Shown one piece after another: positions 1 to 28,906 of a stretch of DNA of 39,818 nt. The notes beneath the pieces are model-generated. The model made no database searches, was not told the DNA's origin, and saw nothing but the letters and a program-made list of their open reading frames with translations. The DNA is from Planctomyces sp. GTDB taxonomy: Bacteria > Planctomycetota > Planctomycetia > Planctomycetales > Planctomycetaceae. How positions within the stretch are numbered: position 1 is the stretch's first letter; every line of letters begins with the position of its first letter. The position numbers and the translations under genes were made by a program. The DNA lies in NCBI GenBank assembly GCA_016795105.1, contig JAEUIH010000066.1:1-39818 (forward strand). The letters run 5' to 3'.

Positions 1-546
1 GCACGAGATTCGGCAGTGTCGAACCGTCATGCAGAACTGGTGACGTTTGAAGAGACACTGTCCGCTCGAAGTGCAGAACAGGAAACGCGTGACGCTGAAT
101 TGGCAGCTCGTGATGCTGAAGTTTCAGCGCGAGAGTCGGCAGTGTCGAACCGTCATGCAGAACTGGTGACGTTTGAAGAGGCACTATCAGCTCGAAGTAC
201 AGAACAGGAAACGCGTGACGCTGAATTGGCAGCTCGTGATACAGAATTGGCTGCCCGCGATGCGGAGCTTGCAGCTCGTGATGCTGAAGTGACAGCACGA
301 GATTCGGCAGTGTCGAACCGTCATGCAGAACTGGTGGCGTTTGAAGAGATACTGTCCGCTCGAAGTGCAGAACAGGAAACGCGTGACGCTGAATTGGCAG
401 CTCGTGATGCTGAAGTTTCAGCACGAGATTCGGCATTGTCTAACCGTCATGCAGACCTGTTGACGTTTGAAGAAACTCTGTCCGCTCGAAGTGCAGAACA
501 GAAAGCTCGCGATGCTGAATTGGCCACCCGCGATGCGGAGCTAGTC
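1..546 (+). repeat. In-gene tandem repeats, 126-bp units (four copies)
   Basis: The four units start at 1, 127, 295 and 421. Units 1, 3 and 4 are 126 bp (42 residues). Unit 2 is 168 bp because it carries two extra seven-residue blocks of the ARDAELA type. Each unit opens with a variant of ARDSAVSNRHAEL and ends with AARDAEVS or similar. Units 1 to 3 are nearly identical at DNA level, including silent positions, which points to recent duplication or ongoing unequal exchange. Unit 4 is more diverged. The array probably continues left of the window. Confidence 0.92.
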
Positions 547-3500
547 GCCCGAGATGCAGAGCTTTGCCGCCGCCACGCAGAGTTGATGACTCGAGAGTCT
601 GAGATTGACGAACGCCTGAACGAACTGGCTGATCGCGAAATCGAGCTTACAGACCGAGTTTCAGACGTTGAAGCATCTCTTGCGGTCTGTGAGCAGACTC
701 AGGCAGAGCTCACTCAAGTTGGGCAGGAACTCGAGCGTCGTTCTCAGGAGACTCATCAGAGGATCATTGCCTTCAAAGATCACTGCCGGAATCGTGCAGA
801 CCGGATGTCTGTTGAATATGATCGGCTGGCAAAGTCAGCGGCCGAACAGCTTCACGCCTCCAACATTCAAACAGCTGAACTGCACAAAGAAATCTCAAAG
901 CTGCGCGATCAGCTCGAGTCAATTGAGGTTGAACTGGATCTCAAGCATGCACGACTTGCTGACGCAGAGGTTGCGATTGACGAACTGCGTATAGAGCGGG
1001 ACGAGTTGCGAGAACAAAACAGACTGGCCACAGAGTGTCATGCTGAGGAACTCGACCGTTTGACCGAGTCCATCGAGAAATCGCGATCGGAGTTCTTTGC
1101 GTTTCAGGCAGAACGAGACCTGTTGATAGCTTCGAGTACGGAGTTAACACAGTCTCAATCTGATGAGATTCTCCGGCTGAATCAGCATATGGAGGAGACT
1201 CGAAGTGAGATTCAGAATCTTCGCTACGAACGCGAATCGATGTTGTCGCAGTCGAATGAACATTTAAAGGCTCAGGCCACGGAACTGGAACGACTCACTC
1301 AGTCACTCTCTGCCTGCGAGGATCGGCTTTCCTTCGTTTCTTTGGAACGCGACGAACTGATCGCCCAGCTCGCAGCAAAGGCTGAAGAAGCTCAGTCGGA
1401 GATCGAAACCCTCCGAGCCTCAATGCTCAACGCAGAGTTTGAAATTGAAACGCTGCGCAAAGAACGTGAAGCGATCGAGGAGTCGAGCAATGATCATGTA
1501 AATTCAATGTCGTCAGAACTGCGTTCTCTCAGCGACCGACTAATTCTCGCTCACGCGGAGAACGAAACACTGCGAACGGATCGCGATCGAATCCTGACGA
1601 CGGGCAGAAGTGCATCAGAGGCATATCTGGTCGACGTCGAGAATCTTCGTTCGGAGCTCTTCAGAGCATCAGAAGCTCATCAGCAGCTTGTGTCGGATCT
1701 GGATCGCTATCGAGCTTCGGCAGAAGAGACGCACGAATCACTCTCAAATACTGAAGCTGAACTGCAGAATGCACATGCTGCTCTTGAGAATTCTCAGATC
1801 AAACTGGAGAGTCTGCAGTCAGAGATCAGGCTGATCAGCAGCGAGAACGAATCACTGCAACTGGAACTGGAAGCTGCGAAACTGGCCAAAATTGCGGCAG
1901 AAGCCGCCGTGCTTGACGCTGAGCAGAATGTCGAACAGAACGCTCAGGACATCGCACGCCTTTCGGCCCTTGATGCTCGTTATCAGTCTCTTGAGGCAGA
2001 ACTGGACGAACTTGCTTCTGAGCGTAAGTTACTGGTCGCAGAGCGTTCGGCTCTCGCAGCTGAACATTCCCGGCTCACCGCAGAGTATTCAGCTCTGTCC
2101 GATGCTCATCAGCAATTGGTGTCCGAAATCAGCCGTCATCGCGTTTCGGCCGAGGAAGCGCATGAATCGCTTTCGAATACCGCCGCAGAACTTCTGGATG
2201 CACATTCTGCTCTGGAGAGCTCTCAAATCAAACTGGAGAGTCTGCAGTCTAAGCTGATGTTGATGAACAGTGAAAATGAATCGCTGCAACAGCAGTTGGA
2301 AGCAGCAAACCTGGCCAGAATTGCGGCAGAGGCGGCAGTCATTGAGGCTGGTCAGAATGCCGCTGACATGGCTCGGCTTTCTACCCTCGAGACCCGCTGC
2401 CATACCCTGGAAGGAGAGCTTAGAGAAGTTGCCTCTGAGCGTTCATCACTGCTCGCAGAGAAGTCTGCTCTTGCTGCCGAAAATTCGCAGTTGAGTACAG
2501 AGCATTCTCGGTTGAGTACTGAGATTGCAGCTCTGTGTGATGTCCAGCAGCAGCTTGTGTCTGAGGCGAGTCGCTATCGTGCTTTGGCTGATGAATCGCA
2601 CGAATCGCGTTCAAACATTGAGACGGAGCTGAAGAACGCAATTTCTGCTCTCGAGAATTCTCAAATCAAACTCGAGAGCCTGCAGTCAGAACACGTGATG
2701 ATTCGCAGTGAAAACGAATCGCTCCAGCAGCAGTTAGAAGCTGCAGGAATTGCAGCAAGAGCGGCAGAGACCGCAATTAGTAATACAGATCAGAACGCAG
2801 CTGACATAGCTCGCCTTTCAGCTCTCGAGGATCGCTGTCAGTCCCTTGAAGCGGAACTTAACGAAGTTGCTTCGGTAAGATCGTCACTGGCCGCTGAACG
2901 GGATGTACTGCTGGAAGCAGTCAAATCTCTAAGTGAAACGTACGACAGTATTCGCAGCGAAGTTGAGTCCGCTCGCGAAGACCGAGAAGCCGCCGAAAAT
3001 CTCCGGAACGAGGTTGCAACTCTGCAGACTCGAATAGGAGAGCTTGAGGCACAGTTGACCGAGTCTTTAATTAATCGATCTGCTTCTTCTGAAGGTGACT
3101 TGTACGATTCAGAAACCGATATGTCTGATGCCAGAACATCAGTTATGTCTGATGCCAGGACATCAATGGGTACTCCTTCGTTCGATGAAACAGAACTGCT
3201 GGCTCAGGTAGAGAGCCTGCGAACGGAGCTTGAGAGTGTGGTATCGGAATCCCGTACTCGACAGGAAGATCTCGAACGCCGGCTATGGGAGAAAGACGAC
3301 GAGCTGCGACAGCACACTGAGTTGTCAAGCACCGATTCAGTGTCGGCAGAAGAATCGGCGAACTCACTTCGAAGAGAACTGGAGCAGCGCGATGAACTCA
3401 TTCAGCGGCTGATGGAGCGGATCGAAGAGATACAGGCTCGAAGTGAACAGATTCAAAGTGAACAGTCGGAGCTAGGGGCAGTCGTTGATCCTGAATCTGC

Positions 3501-4977
3501 TCGTATTCGAAATCAGGAACTCGATAGTCGAGCAGACCTGCTGGATCGACGAGAAGATGAAATTCAGGTTCGAGCTCAACGCATCGAGCAGGCAGAGAAT
3601 GAACTGGAGAACCAGCGACGGCAGATGCTGGAAGCGCGACAGCAGCTGGAACTTGCTCGGGCTGAACTTCAGTTGTCGCTTCAGCAGACGCCTGTACCAT
3701 GGCTGAAGCCTGAGCCGGAACTCACGAAGAGTGAGTCAGCCAGGGCTGGCTACGATGAGGGGGACTACGAGGATCGCGGGCTTCTGGCGAGGACCGATGT
3801 AAACGCGGCCGCGTTTCCGGCCCGAATGAAGAGTGAAGAAGCCAAAGTGTCTAAACCGATTGCACCGGCTGCTGAGTCAACGGAAGAAGACGGAACGGCA
3901 GCGATCGACTTGCGATCTGAGCTGGCAAGCCTGTTTGGGATTCGAAGCCGAAGTCGAAAACTATCTCAGCCAACACCACCGCCGGTTCCAGTGGCGCCCG
4001 TTGATCCGATGGAACCGTCTGCTCCAGGAACGGAACCGGGGATTGCTTTAAAGTTTGGTGCTGAAGCGATTCTTCCAGTGGAACCGCCTCCCGTCCCGCA
4101 GGATGCAGAGAGCAAGACGGAAGAGGACGATTCGACGGACTTTGTTGCGAACTACATGGAGAAACTCCTTGCTCGAAGTCGTCAGGGAGCTGGGAATACG
4201 TTGCCGCTGGAACTGAAGAAGGGCAATAAGTCGGAACCTGAAAAGAAACATCAGCCGAAGTCATTCATTGACCAGTACATGGCAAACGGAATGAGTTTTG
4301 GAGATGCTGAATCATCCAGCAGAGGCGATAGCGGTTCCGGCGGAAACGGCGAAATTCCAAAGCCTCGCCCGAAACTTGACCGAGCGAAGCTTCGAGAGAA
4401 CATGGATTCGTTCCGAGAAGTCTCTGCACACAGCGTTGAGAGTGCTCTGGCTTCTCATGCGATTCGCCAGGAACGGCACAGCATCAACGGACGCATTGCA
4501 TTTGTTGTTGTGCTGGCTGTATTGAGTGTCGCGTCACTGATCGGTCATCTGGTTGGGGTTCTTGATCAGCCAATCTTCGCATGGGGTACATTGATCGCTG
4601 CGATTCTGGCCGGCCTTGAGCTGGCACGGAAACTCCGGAGCGTAAAGAATCGTTTCAAAGGAATCGTACAATCGGAGAAGCGAGGGGCATCGTCCTCAGT
4701 TCAACCGGAGAGGACACAGATTGACGAATTGTCCGGCCACGGGTCGCAGGCAACCACTGATCATCGGGTTGATTCAAGAGAATCTACGGAAGACGATCTA
4801 TTGAAGCAGGCCGAATCCACGCTCAAAGCGTTATCATTCGGCAGGCACGAAAATCCCGGTCAGACTCCACATCCCGAAGTTGAGAAAGCCAGCACGGCAG
4901 CTCCAATGGATGACGAGGCACGTGCGATACGAAGGGCAAGGATGGAGCCTGACGACGAGCATTACTTCGAGATGTAG
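1..4977 (+). CDS. Giant repeat-containing coiled-coil protein with C-terminal membrane anchor (5' end cut by window edge)
   Basis: The frame is open from base 1 and the first codons (A-R-D-S-A) continue a repeat, so the gene begins upstream; the GTG at 16 is only the first start-like codon. Counting from base 1, residues 1-182 are heptad-rich repeats with units such as ARDAELA. Residues about 183-1220 are Glu/Ser/Leu-rich coiled coil, including three copies of a 143-146-residue module (about 559-975). A charged Pro-rich region (about 1230-1480) follows, then two hydrophobic helices (about 1499-1520 and 1524-1543) and a hydrophilic tail ending in HYFEM. I recognise no catalytic domain. A membrane-anchored filament or scaffold is an inference from composition. 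The next gene on the same strand encodes a large membrane protein, which suggests joint work in the envelope. The coding status is secure; the function is unknown. Confidence 0.9.
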   Translation, partial: ARDSAVSNRHAELVTFEETLSARSAEQETRDAELAARDAEVSARESAVSNRHAELVTFEEALSARSTEQETRDAELAARDTELAARDAELAARDAEVTARDSAVSNRHAELVAFEEILSARSAEQETRDAELAARDAEVSARDSALSNRHADLLTFEETLSARSAEQKARDAELATRDAELVARDAELCRRHAELMTRESEIDERLNELADREIELTDRVSDVEASLAVCEQTQAELTQVGQELERRSQETHQRIIAFKDHCRNRADRMSVEYDRLAKSAAEQLHASNIQTAELHKEISKLRDQLESIEVELDLKHARLADAEVAIDELRIERDELREQNRLATECHAEELDRLTESIEKSRSEFFAFQAERDLLIASSTELTQSQSDEILRLNQHMEETRSEIQNLRYERESMLSQSNEHLKAQATELERLTQSLSACEDRLSFVSLERDELIAQLAAKAEEAQSEIETLRASMLNAEFEIETLRKEREAIEESSNDHVNSMSSELRSLSDRLILAHAENETLRTDRDRILTTGRSASEAYLVDVENLRSELFRASEAHQQLVSDLDRYRASAEETHESLSNTEAELQNAHAALENSQIKLESLQSEIRLISSENESLQLELEAAKLAKIAAEAAVLDAEQNVEQNAQDIARLSALDARYQSLEAELDELASERKLLVAERSALAAEHSRLTAEYSALSDAHQQLVSEISRHRVSAEEAHESLSNTAAELLDAHSALESSQIKLESLQSKLMLMNSENESLQQQLEAANLARIAAEAAVIEAGQNAADMARLSTLETRCHTLEGELREVASERSSLLAEKSALAAENSQLSTEHSRLSTEIAALCDVQQQLVSEASRYRALADESHESRSNIETELKNAISALENSQIKLESLQSEHVMIRSENESLQQQLEAAGIAARAAETAISNTDQNAADIARLSALEDRCQSLEAELNEVASVRSSLAAERDVLLEAVKSLSETYDSIRSEVESAREDREAAENLRNEVATLQTRIGELEAQLTESLINRSASSEGDLYDSETDMSDARTSVMSDARTSMGTPSFDETELLAQVESLRTELESVVSESRTRQEDLERRLWEKDDELRQHTELSSTDSVSAEESANSLRRELEQRDELIQRLMERIEEIQARSEQIQSEQSELGAVVDPESARIRNQELDSRADLLDRREDEIQVRAQRIEQAENELENQRRQMLEARQQLELARAELQLSLQQTPVPWLKPEPELTKSESARAGYDEGDYEDRGLLARTDVNAAAFPARMKSEEAKVSKPIAPAAESTEEDGTAAIDLRSELASLFGIRSRSRKLSQPTPPPVPVAPVDPMEPSAPGTEPGIALKFGAEAILPVEPPPVPQDAESKTEEDDSTDFVANYMEKLLARSRQGAGNTLPLELKKGNKSEPEKKHQPKSFIDQYMANGMSFGDAESSSRGDSGSGGNGEIPKPRPKLDRAKLRENMDSFREVSAHSVESALASHAIRQERHSINGRIAFVVVLAVLSVASLIGHLVGVLDQPIFAWGTLIAAILAGLELARKLRSVKNRFKGIVQSEKRGASSSVQPERTQIDELSGHGSQATTDHRVDSRESTEDDLLKQAESTLKALSFGRHENPGQTPHPEVEKASTAAPMDDEARAIRRARMEPDDEHYFEM
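1675..2915 (+). repeat. Three copies of a 143-146-residue coiled-coil module
   Basis: Modules begin near 1675, 2104 and 2542 (steps of 429 and 438 bp). Each starts with a Q-Q-L-V-S motif and carries the conserved stretch NSQIKLESLQS (SSQIKLESLQS in the second), then S-E-N-E-S-L-Q and an A-A-E-A/T segment. The copies are more diverged than the 126-bp units, so this is an older expansion in the same gene. Confidence 0.85.
3121..3168 (+). repeat. 24-bp in-frame tandem duplication
   Basis: The unit at 3121-3144 is repeated at 3145-3168 with few changes and encodes MSDARTS twice (MSDARTSV, MSDARTSM). It lies in a non-heptad interruption of the coiled coil. Confidence 0.85.
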
Positions 4978-5191: not shown

Positions 5192-8100
5192 ATGGACGGG
5201 CAAAATCGAATCACGGAACTTCGGAGGGCACTCTCGGCCTCAGATCCAGGCGCGTTTCTGGTTGAGCCGCGTGTAATTCGTCGCATGATTCGAGAGATGT
5301 TTGGGTATGCGCGACTGGCAACTTCTCTGCCCCATTCAGAAAGTCTCGTCGTAGCATCTGCCAGTGTTCGAGAGCTGGCACATCCGGATGAACTCGGGCT
5401 GTCAACGTTTCATGAGATTCCGCCACTTTGCATCCTGATTGCACTTCCGGACGAGTCGGAGCTTCAGAATCGCCCTGTTCAGGAACTGATGCAGTTTGTC
5501 TGGAGGCGACTCTATCATGCAACTATCGACCGAACGCTGGTTCGGGCAAATTCGACAACACTGACACGAGCCGAGATTCAGAAGCGAATCGCAGACGTTG
5601 GTCAGGTTGAATTTGATGAAGCACATTTTGTGTTGAAAGCCGAGCATCGACTCTTCGATTCTGAAAGTCGCGTTGCTGCGTATGGAGAGTTTGTCGCGAC
5701 CTGGCTTGAGCTTCAGAAGTTTGCGCCTGACCAAATCCCGGTCTGGTTTCCATCTCTGGCAGGACGTGAGCATGTGACGCCGGTCGTCAGTGCAGACCTT
5801 GATCCGGAAGCAATCTACCAGCAAACTCGCCTGTACGCGGCCCCGGTTCCGGACTTGACCCCGGGAATCTCCCGCGATGAGATTCAGCTGACGAGCACTC
5901 GGCATAACTGGACACTCGGTATCGGCCTCAAACAATCCGACCGCGCATTTTCTCGACATCTCAGACGACGAGATCGAGCGAATGAAATTGGAAACACGGT
6001 TGGAGCGATGGTGTCCGCCATGCGAGCAGCGGCTGCCGCGACGAGCGACGAGAATCGCCGGCAGGCACGAGAGAAGGCGCTCTCCGATGTGATGCTTTTG
6101 ACGGAGCGACTCAGAAAAGCACTGAACTTTCCGGAAGATGAGCTGCCGAACTGGGCCTCCTGCCTGAGTGAACTGGCAACGAATTCCATTCATGGATTCT
6201 GGAACGCAGACAAGCGTCTGCTCTACGACCTCCAGAAGGTGTGCCTGGCTCACGAACGCGTAACATACAAAGTTGACCTGGTAAAGTGGATCGTGAGTCG
6301 AGGCCGCCGTCCACTGCGAAGACCATTAAACAGCCTTCGTGAAGTGATGATGGCGAAGTACCTTGCAAGCTCTGCGGCTCGACTTGCGAGCGTTACGCTG
6401 AGTGGGGTGGAGAGAGAGCGCCTTGATGGCCTGCTTCATGAAGCAGCTCAGCTGGCGGAAGTTCAGATGCGAAATCGAATGCGGCCCGCGGTGGCCAGCA
6501 CTCTGATTGACGTGGGACTGAAGCCGGACAATATTCCTGAACAGGTTGCGTTCGACAAACTGATCGAGGATTCGCTCGACTGCATCGTCGAACGAGGTTA
6601 CCTCACCATGGGATACCTGCGAGATGCCATTAGCCGAAACGACCTGAAACTCCCCGACCTGAAGCATCCGAAAGAACTGATCCTCGGGGACCATCTACTG
6701 CGAGCTGACGACCGACTCGACGTTGCTCTGGACGGTGTCTATCGTCGAGGTGAATTTTACCTGCGTTGGTTACAGATTGTCAGTTCCCTGTTCTTTGGGA
6801 CTCGCCCAGGGCGATTCGCGTCACTGTTTGTCATCATTCCATTCGGTGGCGCGATTGTCGTCGTTGCCGGCGTTCAGCACCTCGTGCACGTCATTTCGGG
6901 CCTTAATGCTCCCAAAACTGATGTGATCGCTGAGGCACGAACAAAGTCACTCGACGATGTATCCGGTTTGCTCTCGGAAACCGACGCGAATTCCGATGCC
7001 CTGGGTTCGGCGGCTGAACCAACGCCAAACGAACCAACGCCAAACGAACCGGCCCAAAGCCCGCCGATACAAAAAGATTCTGCTCTGAGCGAGTCATCGC
7101 AAAACGGGCAGGCTGAAGTGCAGCAGACGGCAGGGAGTTCCGGGACGACGGCGTCAGCCGTTAAGTCGGCAACTCCGACGACCGATGTGCAGGGAACGCA
7201 GGCTGGAACAGTCGCTTCCGACACTTCTGCGCACCATTCGTTTTCTTTAGTTGATTCTCTGCCACTGGTGTTGACCATTGGTTTTCTTCTTCTGGGACTG
7301 ATTCACCTTGGGAGTTTCAGAAGTCTGGTTCTGCGAGGATTAAAAATCGCGTGGAGGTACTTCCGCGGAGTGGTGGTTGATATTCCATTGAGGATCATGC
7401 GACTCCCTCTTATTCATCGCATCTGGAAGAGCAGGCTTTTTGTTCGCCTGCGACGTGTAGTGATTAACCCGTTTCTGCTTTCGTGGATTGGTTGCGTTGG
7501 AGTTCCGAAGCTGTTGTGGCTTCAGCCGCTGGCGCAGTGGTGGGTTCTTGCAATCGGTGTGCTTTTGAGTTTTGCTCTGAATTCGCGTCTGGGCCGGGAC
7601 GCTGAGGAGCTGACACAAGAGTGGCTGGGGCATATGTGGCACAATCTGACGGCCAGATTTGTGATTGCATTGATCGATTCAATTATGGATCTGTTCAAGA
7701 CGATTCTGGGACTGATCGAGCGCCTGCTGTACGCCGTCGATGAGTGGTTGAGGTTTCATAGCGGTGAGAGCTGGGTGACAGTGATTGTTAAAGCTGTTGT
7801 TGGAGTCCTTTGGTCGTTTGTTGCCTTTCTGATCCGCGTATACATCAACTTGCTTATTGAGCCAACGCTCCACCCTGTAAAGCATTTCCCCGTCGTCACT
7901 GTCGCGCACAAGATTTTCTTTCCAGTGATTACGATCATCGGAAAAATTATGGTTGATACGATGGAGCCGTATCTCGGGATATGGCTTGCCGGTGTTGTCA
8001 CAGGGTTTAATGTGTTTTTCCTACCGGGCATTTTTGGATTTCTGGTGTGGGAGCTCAAAGAGAACTGGCGACTCTATTCATCCAATCGGCAGGTCTTCCT

Positions 8101-8899
8101 TCGTCCCGTGATTGTCGGGGGGCATGGAGAAACCGTACCGCGGCTGATGCGTCCAGGGTTTCATTCGGGAACATTTCCGAAACTCTTTCGCAGGCTTCGT
8201 CGTCTGGAACTCAGTCCAGCCTCACTGAAACGATATCGCACGCGACGAACTCAGCGAAGTCGGCTGGAACATGTTCAGCGAGATGTCCGCAGGTTTGTGG
8301 AGCGGGAGCTCATCCACCTGCTTCAGCTAGTTCCGTGCTGGTCATCCGCCGGACTCAGGTGCGGGCGAGTCCACGTGGCGTCGAACAGCATCCAGCTGGA
8401 TATTCACTGCGATCATGTTGCAGAAGCTCCCATGATTCTTCTGATGCAGGAACAAAGCGGCTGGATCGTCGCGTGCATTGCACAGCGAGGCTGGAGTGAC
8501 TTCGCATCATCTGAGCAGAATCTGTCATTTGCGCACGCACTCGCGGGGTTCTACCGTAAGTGCGGCATCGATCTGGTCCGAGAACAGCTTCGCAGACATC
8601 TGGTATTCAACCATCAATATGACATCAACGCCGAGGGGCTTGCAATCTGGCCTTCAGGTCTGTTTCACCGGGAGATCACGGTGGACCTGCATCGGCGGAT
8701 TCATGTTCGACCGGTCCCAGCATCAGAGGCCGCGATTTATGGTATCGTGCCCACGGAACGCAGTCTCGTCGTATTCTCAGATACTCAAATGCCCTGGGCC
8801 GACTGGACGGCACTCTGGCTGCCGCGAGAAAATGCCGCCGGAGACAGGTCCACACCTGCTGCATGCACAGTCAGGCCTCGAGTTCCTGTCATCGGATGA
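5192..8899 (+). CDS. Large polytopic membrane protein of unknown function (1235 aa)
   Basis: The ATG at 5192 follows a GAAGGA ribosome site by three bases. Residues 1-540 form a mostly helical soluble region rich in Arg, Leu and Glu. A hydrophobic segment lies at about 542-568, then a low-complexity Pro/Thr/Ser/Gln linker (about 575-685) containing two EPTPN repeats. A hydrophobic segment at about 690-710 and several more up to about 965 follow, including IAGVV-like and FLPGIFGF-like helices. The last 270 residues are soluble and Arg-rich. I see no known catalytic motif. It lies 214 bp downstream of the coiled-coil gene and 21 bp upstream of an aldehyde dehydrogenase, all on the same strand. 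A role in the envelope with the coiled-coil protein is inferred from adjacency only. Confidence 0.88.
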   Translation: MDGQNRITELRRALSASDPGAFLVEPRVIRRMIREMFGYARLATSLPHSESLVVASASVRELAHPDELGLSTFHEIPPLCILIALPDESELQNRPVQELMQFVWRRLYHATIDRTLVRANSTTLTRAEIQKRIADVGQVEFDEAHFVLKAEHRLFDSESRVAAYGEFVATWLELQKFAPDQIPVWFPSLAGREHVTPVVSADLDPEAIYQQTRLYAAPVPDLTPGISRDEIQLTSTRHNWTLGIGLKQSDRAFSRHLRRRDRANEIGNTVGAMVSAMRAAAAATSDENRRQAREKALSDVMLLTERLRKALNFPEDELPNWASCLSELATNSIHGFWNADKRLLYDLQKVCLAHERVTYKVDLVKWIVSRGRRPLRRPLNSLREVMMAKYLASSAARLASVTLSGVERERLDGLLHEAAQLAEVQMRNRMRPAVASTLIDVGLKPDNIPEQVAFDKLIEDSLDCIVERGYLTMGYLRDAISRNDLKLPDLKHPKELILGDHLLRADDRLDVALDGVYRRGEFYLRWLQIVSSLFFGTRPGRFASLFVIIPFGGAIVVVAGVQHLVHVISGLNAPKTDVIAEARTKSLDDVSGLLSETDANSDALGSAAEPTPNEPTPNEPAQSPPIQKDSALSESSQNGQAEVQQTAGSSGTTASAVKSATPTTDVQGTQAGTVASDTSAHHSFSLVDSLPLVLTIGFLLLGLIHLGSFRSLVLRGLKIAWRYFRGVVVDIPLRIMRLPLIHRIWKSRLFVRLRRVVINPFLLSWIGCVGVPKLLWLQPLAQWWVLAIGVLLSFALNSRLGRDAEELTQEWLGHMWHNLTARFVIALIDSIMDLFKTILGLIERLLYAVDEWLRFHSGESWVTVIVKAVVGVLWSFVAFLIRVYINLLIEPTLHPVKHFPVVTVAHKIFFPVITIIGKIMVDTMEPYLGIWLAGVVTGFNVFFLPGIFGFLVWELKENWRLYSSNRQVFLRPVIVGGHGETVPRLMRPGFHSGTFPKLFRRLRRLELSPASLKRYRTRRTQRSRLEHVQRDVRRFVERELIHLLQLVPCWSSAGLRCGRVHVASNSIQLDIHCDHVAEAPMILLMQEQSGWIVACIAQRGWSDFASSEQNLSFAHALAGFYRKCGIDLVREQLRRHLVFNHQYDINAEGLAIWPSGLFHREITVDLHRRIHVRPVPASEAAIYGIVPTERSLVVFSDTQMPWADWTALWLPRENAAGDRSTPAACTVRPRVPVIG
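7016..7050 (+). repeat. 15-bp in-frame tandem repeat in linker
   Basis: A 15-bp unit (7016-7030) is repeated exactly at 7031-7045, and its first five bases recur at 7046-7050. It encodes EPTPN twice in the Pro-rich linker of the large membrane protein. Confidence 0.85.
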
Positions 8900-11522: not shown

Positions 11523-11876
11523 TCAGGCGGATCCGATTTCACGAGCCAACGGCTTGCCTTCTGAATCAACCCGAAGCTGAATTTCACTTCCCACAATGCG
11601 AAGTTCGTAACTGGCCGAACGAATTCCGCTCTTCGAATTGTCCATCCAGGTGCCGTCACACAATCTGAATCGCCAGGCATGCCATGGACACATCACAAGA
11701 CCATCTTCTACATAGCCCTCAGACAGTGAAGCTCCCATATGAGGACAGAAATCATTGATCGCAAAGTATGTTCCCTGGTCAAAAAATACTCCCACCATCG
11801 TTCCGCCTACAGGAAAACACCGGCCCTGTCCTTGCGGTATCTCCCCGGTCTGCGCAAGCGTGATAAAGTCTGACAT
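11523..11876 (-). CDS. Rieske [2Fe-2S] ferredoxin-like protein
   Basis: The 117-residue protein carries a full Rieske cluster site: Cys44-Pro-His46 in FCPHMG and Cys63-x2-His66 in CPWHAW, spaced 16 residues apart as in NirD-like and oxygenase-type ferredoxins. It has no signal peptide, no membrane segment and no oxygenase catalytic domain, so it is probably a soluble electron carrier. I chose the ATG at 11876, preceded by GGAAG at good spacing, over a TTG one codon upstream. It is followed by the DegT aminotransferase and may be co-transcribed with it. Its redox partner is not evident. Confidence 0.93.
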   Translation of the reverse strand: MSDFITLAQTGEIPQGQGRCFPVGGTMVGVFFDQGTYFAINDFCPHMGASLSEGYVEDGLVMCPWHAWRFRLCDGTWMDNSKSGIRSASYELRIVGSEIQLRVDSEGKPLAREIGSA

Positions 11877-13200: not shown

Positions 13201-15375
13201 CTATCCGTGGACCGCGATCCTCAGGGTTTCTTCGACCCAGTGCCTTCCCGCGCGGTAGAGATATCGCCCGAGAGAAATCTGAGGATGGCCAAGACCGGCT
13301 TGAGCGCGTTCCCCGCAGAAAACCTTCAATGAGTCGGATTCGTCAAGCTGAATGACCCCCTGGAATCGATGTTCAGCAAGAATCATACCTGAATCACGTA
13401 CTTCATCGCCGGGGTCGTCTATGATCGTCAACGGACCTCCGGCAGAAGCTGCCATGGCGGGATGCGGAAGATCTCTCGATGCACCTGGATTGATTCGGGA
13501 GAATATGCCCTTCAGCGACGATCGGGTTCCTACTCGAACGTTGAGCATATTTCCAACCTGAGTCGATGCGACGGGCAGATCCTGCTGTCGAATGGAGATG
13601 CGAACCTCTTTACGAGACTCGGATCCTACCGTCATCAACGGATCGCCCTGCTCGACGAAGCGTCCTCTGAGTTGTTCGAGGTCTCGTCCGATCACTGTGC
13701 CATCACGAGATGCTTTGATATCGAGGGAACTCAGGTTCTTCTGTGTCTCAAGCTGTCGCCGTTGCAGCGATTTCAACGTTGATTCAGCGATACTGATCGC
13801 CGATGACTTGTGTTCGCGGCGGGCTGTTTGAAGTCTTAGTTCTTCCTGGCGGATGGCATAGAGCAGATCTCGACTCTCATTGACAACTTCATCGTTCTGC
13901 AGTTGAAGCAGGATGTCGCCTGCTTTGACAAACTGTCCGTTGCTGACAAATACGCTGCGAACAAAGCCGGAAACACGAGGACGAATGATCTCACCATCGG
14001 TGTATTCAACAATTCCCGGAGCCTGAGTCAGTACAGGCGCTGGCAGTAATGTCAATACGGCAGTGAACGCACTAAATCCCGTGAACAGAACGGTACCGGC
14101 ACGAAGAATCCTGAGCGACCCTTCATCCTGCATCCGCTGCACCGCAGACCATGCACCTGCAAGTGGCCGCCAAAACCATACGACGATCCCTGTGATTGCC
14201 AATACAATTCCGGCACCATGGTAAAGCACCGATGCTGTCAGTATGAGCGTGACACACACAAGGACTCGCCAAAGTATCGCCGCGGAACCGTATGCCAGTA
14301 AGAACCACGATTTTCTGCCTGGTCTTGTCGGCAGGACGCTGAAACCAAGCAAGAGACGCCCTGAAACGCTTTGAACTGCCTGAGTTCCCTGAGTACTCAG
14401 ATTCGGTATGTTCATCACATCTGAAAGAACATAATACCCATCAAACTTCATCAGAGGGTTCAGATTGAAGACCACGGTAGAGACACCCGCCATAATGATG
14501 ACGTTATACAGAATGTGTGATAGTGTCTCGTCCTGTGTATAGTGCCAGAGAATTGCAGCAAATGATGCGATGAGGAGTTCGCTGTAGATTCCCGCGACTG
14601 ACGTGTGGATTCGCTGCCAACGAGATCGAAACGCCCAGCAGGCCGAAGCATCGACATAGGCCATTGGAGTGAATATCGCAAGCACTATTCCCATCTGTCG
14701 AACTGTGCCGCCATATCGATGACAAACGATACCATGAGAGAATTCATGGATCAGCTTCAGTGCGATCCATGCGAGCAATAGCCAGTACCAATTGTCGCCA
14801 GAGAACACTTTTTCAGCGGCGAACGATAATCGTTCTCGATTGTTGTTAAGGATCGAGAGAGCAATTCCTGCGGGAATCAGGGCGGAGAGCATTGAAGGGA
14901 CTGAAAAGACCCAGCCGAACCATGGCTGAAGCAGGGTCAGCAGGTTTTGCGGCTTCCCAAGCGGAATGCGAATCCAGAATGGATTCCAGAGACTCAAACC
15001 TGCTTTGGATTGACCTTGCGGGTGTATGGAACGATGCAAATTCAGCGAACCGCAGGATGGTTGACCTGAGATCGCTCCCAGATTCTTCTCGAGCGCCCAA
15101 AGATAAAGTCGCAGGGCTGCCTGTTGAGTCAACGATCGACTGCCGAGTGCTCGGGAAGAGATCGTTACGGCCTGCGAAAAGCTGCACGACCCGTCAAGGA
15201 TTGAGAGAAATGCATATTCGGAGTGTCCAATGCGGTAGTACTCCCCGGTCTCCTGGTTTTCCACGTGGTAGAGCAGTTCGCTTCCACTGGCCTGAGGAAC
15301 AAATCGAACATGTGAATGGATTTTCAGAGTCGTGGCGGCAACATCCAGTGTCGAGAGATCTGCCTTGCCCTGCAT
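13201..15375 (-). CDS. PqqD-like domain / M50 site-2-type zinc protease / HlyD-lipoyl fusion (YydH-like)
   Basis: The 724-residue protein is the third gene of a tight operon. Residues about 18-100 resemble a PqqD-like peptide-binding domain (EYYRIGHSEYAFLSILDG). A membrane region follows with the zinc motif HEFSH at 210-214 and a second ligand in NPLMKFDGYY (Asp312), the pair typical of YydH-type M50 peptidases. Further membrane helices run to about residue 450. Residues about 455-670 form a periplasmic adaptor arm with a split lipoyl domain (SGFVRSVFVSNGQFVKAG) around a short coiled coil. The family is thought to cleave or handle peptides at the membrane. The catalytic residues are intact. 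The ATG sits one base after the stop of the preceding gene, so translation is probably coupled. Confidence 0.9.
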   Translation of the reverse strand: MQGKADLSTLDVAATTLKIHSHVRFVPQASGSELLYHVENQETGEYYRIGHSEYAFLSILDGSCSFSQAVTISSRALGSRSLTQQAALRLYLWALEKNLGAISGQPSCGSLNLHRSIHPQGQSKAGLSLWNPFWIRIPLGKPQNLLTLLQPWFGWVFSVPSMLSALIPAGIALSILNNNRERLSFAAEKVFSGDNWYWLLLAWIALKLIHEFSHGIVCHRYGGTVRQMGIVLAIFTPMAYVDASACWAFRSRWQRIHTSVAGIYSELLIASFAAILWHYTQDETLSHILYNVIIMAGVSTVVFNLNPLMKFDGYYVLSDVMNIPNLSTQGTQAVQSVSGRLLLGFSVLPTRPGRKSWFLLAYGSAAILWRVLVCVTLILTASVLYHGAGIVLAITGIVVWFWRPLAGAWSAVQRMQDEGSLRILRAGTVLFTGFSAFTAVLTLLPAPVLTQAPGIVEYTDGEIIRPRVSGFVRSVFVSNGQFVKAGDILLQLQNDEVVNESRDLLYAIRQEELRLQTARREHKSSAISIAESTLKSLQRRQLETQKNLSSLDIKASRDGTVIGRDLEQLRGRFVEQGDPLMTVGSESRKEVRISIRQQDLPVASTQVGNMLNVRVGTRSSLKGIFSRINPGASRDLPHPAMAASAGGPLTIIDDPGDEVRDSGMILAEHRFQGVIQLDESDSLKVFCGERAQAGLGHPQISLGRYLYRAGRHWVEETLRIAVHG

Positions 15376-15376
15376 G

Positions 15377-17398
15377 CTACCACCCCATCCATGCAGTAAA
15401 GTAGGCGACGGGCTTATGGAACAGGATCCATCCCAGGCTGCGTCGGTCTGCTATCACTTTTCCTGTGCCTCGCATGCCGGGCCTGAGTATCAGACTGGTG
15501 TTCTCAAGCTCTGCATCGCAAACGAAAACATTCTCCTGATCTCGAAGCTCGGCTCGAGGATGAATGCGAAGAATTTCGGCCTCAAATATCGTCTCAGGAA
15601 ACGCATTCAGCTGAAGCTGGACCACCATACCTTGCCGAACGTGCCGAATATCATCTTCCGGAACTCCGACTTCAATATTCATCACTTCCAGTGGTGCGAT
15701 TTCGAACAATGACTGTCCCACTTCGAGAGCAACACCCTCCTTTTCGTGATGGTCGCCGGAAACGACGATTCCTGCGATCGGAGTTCGAATCTCAAGCTCT
15801 GCATTCCGGGTTTCCAGCAACTCTGTCCGATTCTGAAGCCGTTCCACTTCATGACGAGCAATTTCGGCACTGCCAAACTGATGAGTGTTCAGATGGGTAT
15901 TACGCTCTTTTGTCGCTTTGTGCAGGTCGGCGTTCACACCTGCGAGCTCCCAACGGACCTCTCGGCCATCCATTCGGGCGAGCAGTTGATCAACGTCCAC
16001 AAGATCTCCTGGTTCCACATAGCATTCTTCGAGTGACCCCGCAAACGGGGAAGCAACGTATCGGCGTTCAACCGGTTGAAGCTCACAGTGTGCATCGATT
16101 CTGTATGGAAACGGAATCAACAGCAATAATGAAGTTGTGGCGACTGCGGAGATGATTGTGCGGACACGTCTTACTGTAAACTGTTTGCGACACCAGCGAA
16201 TTGTGTTCAGAATTCGACTGTCAGCCAGTCGCTGAATGATCTCAAGGCACGATGCGATCGGCTGAGAAGCAGCATTGATGAAGCATCGCGTCGCATGCAC
16301 TTGCTGCAAGTGCTGATCGCGAGTTCGCCCCTCAGGTAGAAGAATGACTGCGATCGCTGCGACGAGAGTGCCGTCCAGGGTCGATATAGGGGATGAAATG
16401 ACAATTCCCTGTTCGTACTGATCTGCCAGTTCCTGATGTGACCGCATCGCGACTCTGGCAACAGGATCTTCATTCGGCCATTGCGAGATCGAGTCTTTTG
16501 ATATTGCCTCTTGTAAAGCACCAGCGACCAGTTCTGAAACGGTCACTCGCCTGAGATTGTCCGATGACAGTGTGGCATCTTTTAAGGATGATCCCTTGAG
16601 TTCGGCGAGTCGTGTACCGCGTTTCGTAAGGGAAACAAAGACGCCTGCTGCTTGAAAGTGCTCTCGCAGGAGTTCTGCCAGTCGTTCACAGGCGTCTTCG
16701 GTATTGGCCTCACCCTGAACGCGACTCAGGATTTCGATCAAAGCAGCCAGTTGATGTGCTTCATCCGCTGCCTGTTCCAGTGTTTCACTTGGTGCAGCAG
16801 TGACGTCAGATGAAAGATGTTTCTTTCCCTGCGTCCGATTGCCCGAGGCGCCCGTCACCAGGCTATTAGGAGCCCCGTGTGACTGGATTTTGAGAGCCCC
16901 GTGTGACTGGATTTTGAGAGCTTCGCGTGAACAGCCCTCAACAGCGTCAACAAGTTGTTTGAGCCCCTGCTCACCGATGTTCCCGTTGAGGAACTTGTTG
17001 TAGTCTTCGAGGACCGCGACGATACAACTGGATTCCGGCGACTTCAACGGCATGGCCACGATTGTCAGGTTGCTGTTGTTTGCCAGTGGCAAAGTCTTTC
17101 GATAGCCTGTTCGAACAGCACAAATTGCAGCCTGTTTCATTGCTTCGCGGTATTTATCCGGAAGTCCTGTCGTTGGGCAACACAGACTTTCGACGCTCGT
17201 TGAATCATGTTCCGCGGACCAGGGGAGGTGATACCAGTTTACAATGACGGCCCCGCAGAACGCCCGCAGTATCCGACTTGTTTCTTCTTGTAGTGTTGAA
17301 GGTCCAGGGGGACAGCAGGAAAGCCGCATGACGGCAGCGGCCCAGTGGTATGGCAATTCAGAATCACTGGTTGTCGGATCACCTTGCAGATTCAGCAT
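15377..17398 (-). CDS. GAF-domain protein fused to HlyD-type membrane-fusion adaptor
   Basis: This is a 673-residue protein. Residues 1-160 form a Cys-containing region that may be a diverged GAF domain. Residues about 210-365 look like a GAF domain (ligand-sensing fold). A single membrane helix follows at about 415-432, then a lipoyl-type half (YVASPFAGSLEECYVEPGD), a coiled-coil hairpin (about 485-540), the second half (IRTPIAGIVVSGDHHEKEG) and a beta-barrel. The cytoplasmic part could sense a ligand while the periplasmic part acts as an adaptor. It starts 6 bp after the upstream adaptor gene and ends one base before the protease gene. A 16-residue stretch in the linker holds a duplicated eight-residue unit (see the repeat at 16871). 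Confidence 0.9.
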   Translation of the reverse strand: MLNLQGDPTTSDSELPYHWAAAVMRLSCCPPGPSTLQEETSRILRAFCGAVIVNWYHLPWSAEHDSTSVESLCCPTTGLPDKYREAMKQAAICAVRTGYRKTLPLANNSNLTIVAMPLKSPESSCIVAVLEDYNKFLNGNIGEQGLKQLVDAVEGCSREALKIQSHGALKIQSHGAPNSLVTGASGNRTQGKKHLSSDVTAAPSETLEQAADEAHQLAALIEILSRVQGEANTEDACERLAELLREHFQAAGVFVSLTKRGTRLAELKGSSLKDATLSSDNLRRVTVSELVAGALQEAISKDSISQWPNEDPVARVAMRSHQELADQYEQGIVISSPISTLDGTLVAAIAVILLPEGRTRDQHLQQVHATRCFINAASQPIASCLEIIQRLADSRILNTIRWCRKQFTVRRVRTIISAVATTSLLLLIPFPYRIDAHCELQPVERRYVASPFAGSLEECYVEPGDLVDVDQLLARMDGREVRWELAGVNADLHKATKERNTHLNTHQFGSAEIARHEVERLQNRTELLETRNAELEIRTPIAGIVVSGDHHEKEGVALEVGQSLFEIAPLEVMNIEVGVPEDDIRHVRQGMVVQLQLNAFPETIFEAEILRIHPRAELRDQENVFVCDAELENTSLILRPGMRGTGKVIADRRSLGWILFHKPVAYFTAWMGW
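16871..16918 (-). repeat. Exact 24-bp tandem duplication in linker of GAF-HlyD gene
   Basis: Bases 16871-16894 are repeated without change at 16895-16918. In the minus-strand frame this encodes ALKIQSHG twice. A third, diverged start of the unit (AGCTTCGCGTGA) follows. The perfect match points to a very recent slippage event. Confidence 0.95.
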
Positions 17399-17404
17399 CG
17401 GAGA

Positions 17405-18493
17405 CTACCTTGACTGACCAGCAACCGCATCTTCTGTGATGGCCGGAGAGTTGTGGTTCGTTTTCGAATCGAGCCTCAAAGTGACACGTTCTCCGGACTG
17501 CCACCGGCTGGTGTCATTGGGAAGACGAACCTTAACGCGAACTGATGAGTTCGAAGCGTCGGCAACCGGGGAGACGTATTCAACGAACCCGATGTCCGAG
17601 AGTTGCTCAGCCCCGATCTGCAATTCCACAGAATCGTTTTGTTTCAGCAGGTTTCTGGCAGTCAGAGGGACGGAAAACACAACGAGCAGCGGATCCAGTT
17701 GCACAATTCTGGCGACGACCGGATCCGAAGGAGACACGAACTCACCGGCGTCTTTGAGAACTTCTGTTACGACACCGCGGATGGGTGATCGCACCTGGCG
17801 TTGTTCGAGTTGAACTTCGATTCTCTTCAACTCAAGCCGCCTGACTTCAAGGTCTTCACGAACAGCAAGAAGTCGAGCTTCAGCAAGGGTCAGTTCCATT
17901 TGAATTCGGTCAACTTCATTCTGAGAGGCATGGCTTCGTTCGCGAAGACCATCCAGTTTCTCCAGCTCACTGCGTTTCATCCTGAGATCAGCTTCGGCAG
18001 ACTTCAAAGCTCCCTGAGCCGACATATTTGCCCGTGCAACTTCAATGGCGGCCCGCGGGATCTGAGAGTCCAGCGTCGCTACAACGGCGCCGCTTTCAAT
18101 TACAGCACCTTCCAGAACGTAAACTTCTGAAAGTGACCCCATTTCGGATGCGGCGAGTGCGATTTCACGGTAGGGCTCACTAAACGCTTCAACTGTCTGC
18201 AATTCATCAGTGTTGTTGTTGATCCGATTTTTCGCCGTATTTAGATCTGTAAATTGCTCTGAAGTCGGGCTGGAGTCAAGATCGTGCGCCGATGGAAAGA
18301 GAGTTCCACTGGACGTGACGGACGGTTTCTCTTCAGTGGAGGGATATGCTGCGAGCAGACTGGTTCCCGTCAGCGCGACGATGACAGCCAGCAGGAAGAA
18401 TCGACTATGCGAGTTCATCGCCCATTTGTGTAAGAACATTTTCTGAACAACTCCCGAGCATCGATATGCGAGGATGAGGCAAAAATGCAACAT
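17405..18493 (-). CDS. Periplasmic adaptor (HlyD/RND membrane-fusion protein family)
   Basis: The first gene of the operon encodes about 362 residues. After a hydrophobic export segment (FFLLAVIVALTGTSLLAA) come a lipoyl half (MGSLSEVYVLEGAVIESG), an alpha-helical hairpin of about 70 residues rich in Glu/Arg/Leu, a second lipoyl half (RSPIRGVVTEVLKDAGEFV), and a beta-barrel domain (VVFSVPLTARNLL). This is the standard order for adaptors that link inner-membrane pumps to outer-membrane channels. The start is chosen from AAGGTGG at 18501-18507, seven bases before the ATG at 18493. A start at 18418 would place the signal peptide right at the N-terminus and remains possible. No pump or outer-membrane channel gene is adjacent. 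Confidence 0.9.
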   Translation of the reverse strand: MLHFCLILAYRCSGVVQKMFLHKWAMNSHSRFFLLAVIVALTGTSLLAAYPSTEEKPSVTSSGTLFPSAHDLDSSPTSEQFTDLNTAKNRINNNTDELQTVEAFSEPYREIALAASEMGSLSEVYVLEGAVIESGAVVATLDSQIPRAAIEVARANMSAQGALKSAEADLRMKRSELEKLDGLRERSHASQNEVDRIQMELTLAEARLLAVREDLEVRRLELKRIEVQLEQRQVRSPIRGVVTEVLKDAGEFVSPSDPVVARIVQLDPLLVVFSVPLTARNLLKQNDSVELQIGAEQLSDIGFVEYVSPVADASNSSVRVKVRLPNDTSRWQSGERVTLRLDSKTNHNSPAITEDAVAGQSR

Positions 18494-18500
18494 CTGCATT

Positions 18501-26873: not shown

Positions 26874-27566
26874 ATGTCACTTCTGCTTCAGGATGTCACT
26901 AAGTCTTATCGCGAGCCCGGGGGCCGAGTGCTCCCGGTGCTCTCGATCGAGAAATACGAACTTGTTCAGGGTGAACAGGCAGTTCTGGTTGGTTCAAGCG
27001 GAGGCGGCAAAACGACGCTTCTGAATATCATCTCAGGAATTCTTCTGCCGGACTCAGGCAAGGTTGTGATCGATGGTCGAAACATTGTTGAGATGCCGGA
27101 AGCGATCCGCGATCGTTACCGAGCCATCAGAATTGGTATCGTGTTTCAGACATTCAATCTCCTCCCGGCCTTTACCGCACTTGAAAATGTTCTGCTGGGG
27201 ATGTCGTTCTCTGGCCGAAAGGTCGATCGGCCGTTCGCCGAGAACCTGCTGCAGCGAGTCGGACTGGCACACCGCCTGAATCACTCGCCGTCTAAGATGT
27301 CCGTCGGCGAACAGCAGCGAGTGGCCGTTGCCCGTGCACTCGCGAATAAACCCGTCCTGCTGCTCGCTGATGAGCCAACTGCGAACGTCGATTCAGACAA
27401 CCAGTCTTTGATACTGAACCTGATTCGAGACACCTGCCGGGAGAATAATGTCACGCTTCTGATGGTGACGCACTCGCCTGAAGTTGCTGGTGCATTCAGT
27501 CGAGTGGACCGGCTCCGCGATTTCAATCGAGTCGTTGCGGGACGCAAACAGGAGGTGTCGAAATGA
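26874..27566 (+). CDS. ABC transporter ATP-binding protein (LolD/MacB-like)
   Basis: The 230-residue ATPase has Walker A GSSGGGKT (40-47), a Q-loop in VFQTFNLLPAFTALEN, the signature MSVGEQQRVAVARA (the usual LSGG replaced by MSVGE), Walker B LLLADEPTANVD and the switch His in MVTHSPE. Its size and motifs fit the MacB/LolD/FtsE type, which moves lipoproteins, peptides or drugs by mechanotransmission rather than classic transport. GAGGTG precedes the ATG. It overlaps the permease gene by ATGA, so the two are translated together. Confidence 0.96.
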   Translation: MSLLLQDVTKSYREPGGRVLPVLSIEKYELVQGEQAVLVGSSGGGKTTLLNIISGILLPDSGKVVIDGRNIVEMPEAIRDRYRAIRIGIVFQTFNLLPAFTALENVLLGMSFSGRKVDRPFAENLLQRVGLAHRLNHSPSKMSVGEQQRVAVARALANKPVLLLADEPTANVDSDNQSLILNLIRDTCRENNVTLLMVTHSPEVAGAFSRVDRLRDFNRVVAGRKQEVSK

Positions 27567-28906
27567 ATCTGTTCACGATTGCATGGAAGAGTGTTCGCCA
27601 GCGCAGGCTGGCTTCGGGCCTCACCGCTCTCAGTATTGCGCTGGGTGTGATGCTGATGGTTCTTGTGCTTGTCATTTCGGGCGCTGTGGAGCAGGCCTTC
27701 GGACAGAGATCCATCGGTTACCAGTTGCTTGTAGGACCGAAGGGCAGCGATTTACAGCTCGTACTGAGCGCTGTTTATCGGATTCAGCCACCGATTGAGA
27801 ATCTGCCGTATATGTACTACGAGCAGTTGAAAAAAGATCGACGAGTTCAGGTTGCTGTGCCGCTGGCGTTCGGAGATGTTACAGAAGTTGGCGGGTTTCC
27901 GATCGTGGGGACGACGGCCGAGTACTTTGAACACCCGTATGCGCCGGAACGAAAATTTCGGATGCGAGGAAAACAGATCGTTCAGCTGTTTGATGCCATT
28001 GTCGGTGCAGAGGTTGCAAGGTTCAACAACTGGGATGTTGGCTCGCAGTTCTCAATCAAACACGGGGGAGCGGACAGCGAAGACGTTCATGACGAAAAAT
28101 TCACTGTTGTGGCAGTGCTCGAAGCCACTGGTACCGCAAATGATCGAACGGTATTTCTGAATCTCGAAGGGTTTTACGCCATCGAAGGGCACGAGAAACC
28201 GATTGATGAAGCCGAAAAACGTCTTCGCGATTTCTATGCATCCGAGCCCGATGTCCTGGACAATGCAATCGCCCAGCTGGAAGAATATCGCCGACATCAG
28301 GCTGAGTCTGCTTCTGCCCCGGAAGACCATGCACATGAACACGAAAAGACGCCCGTGGCGATGAAGGAAGTCACAGCGATTCTGGTTCGAACGCGATCCG
28401 ATTTCGATGCGATTAACCTGCAGTCGGACTTGAAGAAGGGCTTCCAGGCGATGGCCGTCAATCCAATTGCGCCGATCAACCGCCTCATGACCAACGTTCT
28501 CGGAAATGTTCAAAAAGCACTGGTCGTGCTGACTGGTATGATCATTCTGGTATCAGGGATCAGTATCTTTGTCAGCATCTACAATTCGATGTCCGATCGC
28601 AAAAAGGAAATCGGCATCATGCGGGCTTTGGGAGCCCAGCGAACCAGTGTGTTCGCAATTGTTCTCGCAGAATCTGCTGTTCTGTGTTTTGGCGGTGGCG
28701 TGATCGGATGGCTGCTCGGACACGGAATTGCGGTTGTTGCTTCACCGACCGTTTCGATGAAAACCGGACTTCTGCTGAATCCCTGGGCTGTCAATCCGTG
28801 GGAATTCGTACTGTTTCCAGTGATGCTGATCCTTGCGGTTCTCGTCGGGTTCCTTCCAGGGATGACAGCTTACAAAACGAATGTAGCAGATGCACTTCAA
28901 TCCTGA
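27563..28906 (+). CDS. ABC transporter permease, MacB/FtsX type
   Basis: The 447-residue protein has one N-terminal membrane helix (about 20-45), a large extracytoplasmic MacB-type domain (about 50-310) and three C-terminal helices of the FtsX fold (about 315-340, 365-390 and 410-435), with the usual cytoplasmic motif KKEIGIMRALGAQR between the first two. Unusual is a His-rich stretch in the outer domain (His256, His258 and His260 in EDHAHEHEK) that could bind metal. Its cargo is unknown. The ATGA overlap with the ATPase gene shows they form one transporter. Confidence 0.95.
   Translation: MNLFTIAWKSVRQRRLASGLTALSIALGVMLMVLVLVISGAVEQAFGQRSIGYQLLVGPKGSDLQLVLSAVYRIQPPIENLPYMYYEQLKKDRRVQVAVPLAFGDVTEVGGFPIVGTTAEYFEHPYAPERKFRMRGKQIVQLFDAIVGAEVARFNNWDVGSQFSIKHGGADSEDVHDEKFTVVAVLEATGTANDRTVFLNLEGFYAIEGHEKPIDEAEKRLRDFYASEPDVLDNAIAQLEEYRRHQAESASAPEDHAHEHEKTPVAMKEVTAILVRTRSDFDAINLQSDLKKGFQAMAVNPIAPINRLMTNVLGNVQKALVVLTGMIILVSGISIFVSIYNSMSDRKKEIGIMRALGAQRTSVFAIVLAESAVLCFGGGVIGWLLGHGIAVVASPTVSMKTGLLLNPWAVNPWEFVLFPVMLILAVLVGFLPGMTAYKTNVADALQS

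Follow-up and report, generated by a model that had tools for sequence, protein, structure and literature searches.

The stretch of DNA considered here, a window of 39,818 nucleotides spanning positions 1 to 39,818 of contig JAEUIH010000066.1 from Planctomyces sp. (GCA_016795105.1; contig C354 of this 8.9-Mb genome in our numbering), carries three co-directional minus-strand genes for HlyD-type adaptors, one of them fused to an intramembrane metalloprotease. We consider it probable that this trio supplies the inner-membrane and periplasmic components of a split, type-I-like exporter driven by a SecA-like ATPase, and that a second contig, C358, encodes the motor together with a TolC-family channel and a probable giant, leader-bearing cargo. 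Judged from its sequence, the cargo is probably a giant protein that lacks a Sec-type signal and has a leader of the LEPR-XLL type at its N-terminus. The trio and the leader are a candidate machine and a candidate sorting signal for the export of giant planctomycetal proteins: huge proteins are more numerous in Planctomycetota than in most bacteria (PMC11573180, accessible part), and no paper was found on how those proteins leave the cell.

The trio is packed with gaps of 6 bp between the first and second genes and 1 bp between the second and third, and Pfam HlyD domains are present in all three proteins. The original prediction from the sequence alone, of a tightly packed gene set of export type that includes a GAF-type adaptor and a protease part, is borne out by the open reading frame (ORF) coordinates, the HlyD matches and the M50 motifs and, for GAF, by relatives and a structural model. 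The first gene (17405-18499; 364 amino acids (aa); P0003) encodes, according to its ORF and profile scans, a periplasmic adaptor of the HlyD/RND (resistance-nodulation-division) type, with its HlyD part at approximately 17420-18199 and a probable true start at M28 (18418), after which comes a signal-peptide-like hydrophobic stretch. The second (15377-17398; 673 aa; P0002) encodes a further adaptor, for which an AlphaFold2 model (predicted local distance difference test score, pLDDT, 84.5) gives two alpha/beta modules, GAF-like by comparison with relatives, at residues ~16-165 (16904-17353, modelled with lower confidence) and ~204-395 (16214-16789), then a probable transmembrane helix at residues 409-426 (16121-16174) and an HlyD arm whose closest fold in Foldseek is MacA. 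Pfam GAF is not matched in P0002 itself; alignment A3 shows such matches in 28 of its 50 members (E <= 0.05), and the modelled modules stand at places comparable to those matches, a comparison of places and not of alignment columns.

The third gene (13201-15375; 724 aa; P0001) encodes a fusion of a putative PqqD-like domain, an M50 intramembrane metalloprotease and an HlyD arm, and by its motifs the product is a predicted site-2-type M50 protease. Both M50 motifs are present, HExxH as HEFSH at residues 210-214 (14734-14748) and NPxxxxDG as NPLMKFDG at residues 306-313 (14437-14460), and the barrel-sandwich/hairpin arm, located by Pfam, model and fold matches, lies at 13456-14037. Pfam Peptidase_M50 matches with E 9e-6 and 25.6 bits, slightly below the cut-off of 27.2; both histidines, the glutamate, NPL and DG are invariant in alignments of 19 (A1) and 42 rows (A4), P0001 included, and the second histidine is only nearly invariant in the 70-row alignment A2. 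Alignments A2, A3 and A4 drew on ORFs of set length and score (69 M50 and 50 GAF-HlyD), A3 omitting locus L107 and A4 taking 41 of the 69 M50 ORFs. The AlphaFold2 model of P0001 from the 70-row alignment (mean pLDDT 90.7) has an N-terminal alpha/beta domain (residues ~16-102; 15070-15330), membrane-type helices holding HEFSH and NPLMKFDG, and the HlyD arm. That N-terminal domain, which the original prediction missed, appears to be PqqD-like from its relatives and the model: the profile scan of P0001 itself gave no match to PF05402, which was matched in 18 of the 42 A4 members (E <= 0.05) and, when eight M50 proteins were scanned singly, in four at residues ~37-107, above the cut-off in two. 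'PqqD family' is also the protein name in 4 of the 25 plasmid rows listed. Foldseek searches with the P0001 and P0002 models returned adaptor arms in all 50 rows shown for each and were uninformative on the PqqD and GAF parts. A promoter/terminator scan gave no signal (6 sites against 3.6 ± 1.9; 5 against 5.9 ± 2.5).

Matches to P0001 (E <= 0.001) are found in at least 59 of the 61 family genomes, mostly several per genome, among the matches listed, and the near named relatives belong to Fuerstiella and other Planctomycetota. The order HlyD, GAF-HlyD, M50-HlyD is retained in 12 of the 14 closest loci (L039-L052), contig ends cutting the remaining two. As to a co-occurring fourth gene, for which the original prediction proposed a survey, a short SecA-like ATPase adjoins the trio in seven of these 14 loci and a TolC-family channel in six, and no classical ATP-binding cassette (ABC), RND or major facilitator superfamily (MFS) pump is a recurrent partner in the loci examined. 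The SecA-like proteins combine SecA_DEAD and preprotein-binding domains in ~630-680 aa, and Pfam SecA_SW was matched in none of the four scanned, the C358 copy included. A wider survey of the best 80 loci of 561 confirmed relatives spans Planctomycetota, Verrucomicrobiota, Pseudomonadota, Nitrospirota, Bacteroidota and others; our own profiles detected M50-HlyD ORFs in 70 of these loci, GAF-HlyD in 65, HlyD in 44, SecA-like in 37 and TolC-like in 17, with a non-component ORF of at least 1500 aa in 21. All of these are low estimates, since antisense ORFs displace some genes from the ORF selection in GC-rich DNA and the contigs are often short. Machine parts are commonly split across the genome.

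Such a division appears to exist in the window genome. Immediately beside the trio there is neither a pump gene nor a channel gene; in the window, a Pfam scan covered 20 of the 32 ORFs picked (all neighbours of the trio except small ORFs, a 118-aa ORF at 11523 and a sulfatase-like ORF at 20060) and found no RND or MFS pump among those 20. The claim that the trio has neither pump nor channel holds only for its surroundings: the machine appears to be split into two loci, C354 and C358, rather than pump-less, because SecA-like and TolC-family partners recur beside relatives and one of each sits on C358. There a SecA-like gene of 664 aa adjoins a TolC-family gene of 880 aa, and the two diverge from a DUF4347/cadherin giant; its open frame runs to 2292 residues, of which the first 1952 hold DUF4347, laminin-G, PKD, immunoglobulin and cadherin domains. 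The start of this giant reads TLEERLLMSATP, and it is the only match to our leader profile in the window genome (27 of 39 candidates scored). The channel is present in the genome, and its working partnership with the trio is putative. The genome holds two short SecA-like genes, on C358 and C22, together with one long SecA on C51. As several machines coexist (C354, C44, C111 and C222), the trio is paired with the C358 motor on the ground that the two show parallel kinship in the same genomes: G053, G047 and G042, which carry the nearest trios, account for three of the four C358-type SecA genes that are nearest among the matches listed. A TolC-family gene lies beside three of the four nearest relatives of the C358 SecA, with a giant too in one of those three (L183), and the layout of C358 is found in G053.

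The link to giant proteins was drawn from their N-termini. Many giant ORFs beside machine genes begin with a common leader, LxLxxLE(P/E/D)RxL(L/F/M)(S/D)A ('LEPR-XLL'). Written as [LIM]E.R.[LM][LFYM][SDN][AG], the motif has 24 occurrences in six-frame segments totalling 1.08 million residues, 23 of them within 130 residues of the segment start; it is absent from the same segments reversed or once shuffled, and had no match in a small control of 20 stretches of 20 kb (400 kb) from two carrier genomes. The leaders are non-hydrophobic, the top 15-residue stretch averaging at most 1.15 in all 33 measured, compared with 2.38 for one signal peptide. The NCBIfam model NF012209 was set aside as sole marker, being too insensitive (11 of 61 genomes, the window genome not among them), and for that reason a profile was built from 38 leaders. 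When 294 Planctomycetota genomes were scored for M50-HlyD, 101 were carriers (E <= 1e-30) and 193 non-carriers; the leader was found in 42 genomes, every one a carrier (42/101 versus 0/193; p 3e-23, uncorrected for kinship), and these genomes fall in 17 families. With the four genomes that had supplied leaders to the profile (G000, G042, G053 and G029) removed, the counts are 38/97 versus 0/193. For DUF4347, 22 of 24 genomes with any match and 18 of 18 at E < 1e-20 are M50-HlyD carriers, the M50-HlyD, DUF4347 and leader tables being treated as one draw of 294 genomes (same settings, count and handles). Within the trio's own clade (13 genomes at E < 1e-88, among the matches listed) DUF4347 is present in 13 of 13, compared with 5 of 48 elsewhere, by a cut that was chosen after the list was seen; with G031, which lies just below it, the figure is 13 of 14. 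As separate observations, the leader profile matches G191 15 times, the longest open frame concerned having 10,951 residues, and at L054 (14927-18190) a protein with RTX and cadherin parts and the leader LEPRILLSA lies beside a paralogous trio, so that leader cargo may include an RTX type.

Plasmids provide adjacency in a distant lineage. A plasmid search matched 31 records, of which the 13 holding a full-length M50-HlyD were examined (the other 18 being partial matches), and in 12 of these 13 loci, from Alphaproteobacteria, the machine genes have a giant ORF upstream of them on the same strand (>2100 aa inside the stretch), either adjoining or separated by a DUF3467 or HlyD gene; the thirteenth match begins 1.3 kb from the origin of its record. 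Six of the 12 giant starts were read and all six carry the leader, five as the strict motif and the sixth as a variant, LEPRLLLAA, that sits upstream of the annotated start. Genes annotated as 'LEPR-XLL domain-containing protein' are 38.7 kb long in Pseudosulfitobacter, 31.8 kb in Pontibrevibacter and 12.1 kb in Thalassospira. No RND or MFS pump is listed beside the machine in the annotated plasmid stretches. Leader-bearing giants also stand beside the machine in Verrucomicrobiota and Planctomycetota. Two further features of the plasmid loci deserve mention. Firstly, proteins labelled 'prepilin peptidase' or 'DEAD/DEAH box helicase' match SecA profiles and appear to be mislabelled SecA-like motors (L222 18086-20110, L223 17204-19120 and L226 17160-19145). 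Secondly, 5 of the 13 loci have, between the giant and the machine, a gene for a DUF3467 protein of ~100 residues that is possibly a cargo chaperone or adaptor (L223 12726-13046, L224 7641-7985, L225 12687-12983, L226 12884-13165 and L232 11775-12080).

It is worth setting out what weighs against a split exporter of giant proteins. The motif was found in only 24 of the 103 machine loci read and in 12 of the 37 wider loci of at least 20 kb, and 59 of the 101 carrier genomes have no leader match, whether through an insensitive profile or through other cargo. Of 30 DUF4347 sites, 8 have a machine gene within 15 kb, where 0.8 would be expected (among the matches listed; 30 kept of 32, after a weak G060 hit and the second of two matches in a single G006 frame were dropped). 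Across the 61 genomes, and among the matches listed, a short SecA gene lies within 12 kb of 30 of 150 M50-HlyD sites, and an M50-HlyD site within 12 kb of 31 of 96 SecA sites; the Thalassospira plasmid stretch has no SecA gene near its machine. Carriers hold several machine paralogues, so no single copy can be assigned to a given cargo. Kinship inflates all p-values, and both genome tables may miss cases because few candidates were scored per genome (the three best for M50-HlyD, up to 27 for the leader). Leader binding and the cut site are proposed by analogy, and experimental work on the machine was not found in the literature.

These shortfalls in coverage would be expected if the association of leader and machine were indirect, both marking large-genome, surface-attached lineages whose giants exit by another route. 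Kinship, handled only by a crude family collapse that assumed 68 families in all, fits this explanation as well. We nevertheless regard it as unlikely, given that the genes adjoin one another in Alphaproteobacteria plasmids, Verrucomicrobiota and Planctomycetota alike, and that the leader is missing from all 193 non-carriers and from the control stretches, few as the latter are. To be considered with a similarly low expectation is a machine that matures and exports a small ribosomal peptide, its PqqD-like domain binding the leader, M50 cutting and the adaptors exporting. Residues 36-395 of P0001 do match the NCBIfam daptide intramembrane metalloprotease (NF041824; E 1e-46), the epipeptide metalloprotease model gives 1.5e-7, and the PqqD matches among relatives suit a peptide leader; the daptide score, however, is 159.8 against a cut-off of 300 bits, the leader sits on giants and co-occurs with the machine, and giants are the recurrent plasmid neighbours, the small DUF3467 gene being a candidate cargo. 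The peptide processing of the original prediction finds no support, the recurrent neighbour being a giant leader-bearing protein.

Regulated proteolysis without export, in which M50-HlyD is a signalling protease that senses the envelope through its HlyD arm and takes a second input from the GAF-like modules, seems more doubtful still: M50 proteases commonly act in signalling and the modules of P0002 would suit that role, but the recurrence of TolC-family and separate adaptor genes, and the clustering with giant extracellular-type proteins, point elsewhere. That the adaptors serve a conventional pump encoded at a distance, such as the ABC and MacB/FtsX pair at 26874-28906, with the protease incidental, is the least probable explanation, for although the P0002 arm is nearest in fold to MacA and the pair lies within the window, no ORF in the 102 other loci compared matches its permease (E 1e-10), its ATPase matches 7 ORFs in 6 of them, and the genes recurring beside the trio are SecA-like.

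For the split, SecA-driven exporter, a sequence of events can be proposed, in which leader binding, trimming, the direction of transport and GAF gating are inferred. PqqD/RRE domains bind peptide leaders and, by analogy, the PqqD-like domain of P0001 would bind the LEPR-XLL leader in the cytoplasm. The short SecA-like ATPase, which has no match to the Pfam wing/scaffold domain, would then drive the chain across the membrane, through either the membrane part of the M50 protein or SecYEG. The M50 site may cut the leader off close to the conserved L(L/F/M)(S/D)A with which it ends, and so license release; the three HlyD arms, to judge from their folds, could form a duct docking on the TolC-family channel; and the GAF-like modules might gate the machine in response to some cytoplasmic ligand. 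More tentatively, and at slightly less than even odds, we suggest that this amounts to a separate giant-protein pathway, in which a leader domain in the style of ribosomally synthesised and post-translationally modified peptides, an intramembrane protease and an adaptor select LEPR-XLL cargo for one-step export of up to ~13,000 residues through a SecA-derived motor and a mixed HlyD and TolC duct, under a GAF gate. If true, a TolC-type duct would be powered by a SecA relative in place of an ABC exporter, the sorting of very large proteins would rely on leader recognition of the kind found with ribosomal peptides, and a little-studied machine would gain a likely job.

Several other genes complete the picture of the window and its genome. 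The ABC ATPase (26874-27566, plus strand) and MacB/FtsX-type permease (27563-28906, plus strand) overlap by 4 bp and lie ~8 kb from the trio on the opposite strand; the pair was set aside as the trio's pump because it does not recur in the loci compared. Two adjacent large plus-strand ORFs, 16-4977 and 5192-8899 (1653 and 1235 aa), have no convincing Pfam match. Three further M50-HlyD loci of the window genome (L056, L057 and L058, on C44, C111 and C222) each have another adaptor, and a TolC-family gene is close by in two of them, which suggests more than one such machine per genome. What may be a degenerating copy of the system is seen at L053 (8854-10709) in G031, a genome without a DUF4347 match: the protease gene is broken into three, with a 1051-aa TolC-family ORF and a short SecA-like fragment nearby.

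Among known systems, type I secretion (HlyB-HlyD-TolC) resembles the proposed machine in its HlyD-type adaptors, TolC-family channel and large, repeat-rich candidate cargo (cadherin, RTX), but the machine here has a SecA-like ATPase and no recurrent ABC exporter, an N-terminal leader, and a protease fused to an adaptor. Accessory Sec systems with SecA2 likewise employ a second SecA-like ATPase, and the best NCBIfam match is a SecA2 model, below its cut-off; the proteins here differ in their length, in the SecA_SW match wanting in all four scanned, and in having HlyD, M50 and TolC partners. Daptide and epipeptide profiles match the M50 part of P0001, the daptide profile also the region before it, whereas the scores are far under curated cut-offs, an HlyD arm is fused and the neighbours are giants. 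The leader is the same motif as, or a variant (LEER, LEDR) of, that named by the NCBIfam model NF012209 LEPR-XLL. One paper, in its accessible part, describes a Vibrio protein of ~8000 aa with an N-terminal LEPR-XLL and RTX parts and does not use the terms SecA and HlyD (PMC10868602); the accessible parts of the two papers found with the term LEPR-XLL draw no link to an export machine. No paper was found linking cargo, leader and PqqD domain to the machine, in a search outside which lay most subscription papers and all preprints.

The closest precedent is a module of secondary SecA_DEAD, HlyD, GAF-HlyD and Peptidase_M50 proteins, the same four kinds as here, known from comparative genomics (Kamneva, Poudel, Ward 2015, PMC4452313). 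The accessible part of that paper proposes SecA as the ATPase and the M50 protein as a possible pore, calls the broader role unknown, and allows that module parts may be apart in a genome and that an OEP channel is sometimes present; it also lists Methylobacterium extorquens AM1 among the carriers. Its main text, to the same extent, lacks the terms DUF4347 (as 4347), cadherin, adhesin, PqqD and LEPR. The objection that the trio might be an already characterised exporter applies in part, the gene set having been reported computationally in 2015, with no experimental work on it found in the literature searched. P0001 is the M50-like membrane protein with HlyD of the module, GAF-HlyD is recognised through relatives and the model rather than by Pfam on P0002 itself, and secondary SecA_DEAD proteins are present, non-adjacent, at C358 and C22, the former without a SecA_SW match. 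To this module the present analysis adds a motor, channel and candidate cargo located together in a second locus, a proposed leader and, as its new element, a likely cargo for a known module: giant proteins bearing the LEPR-XLL leader.

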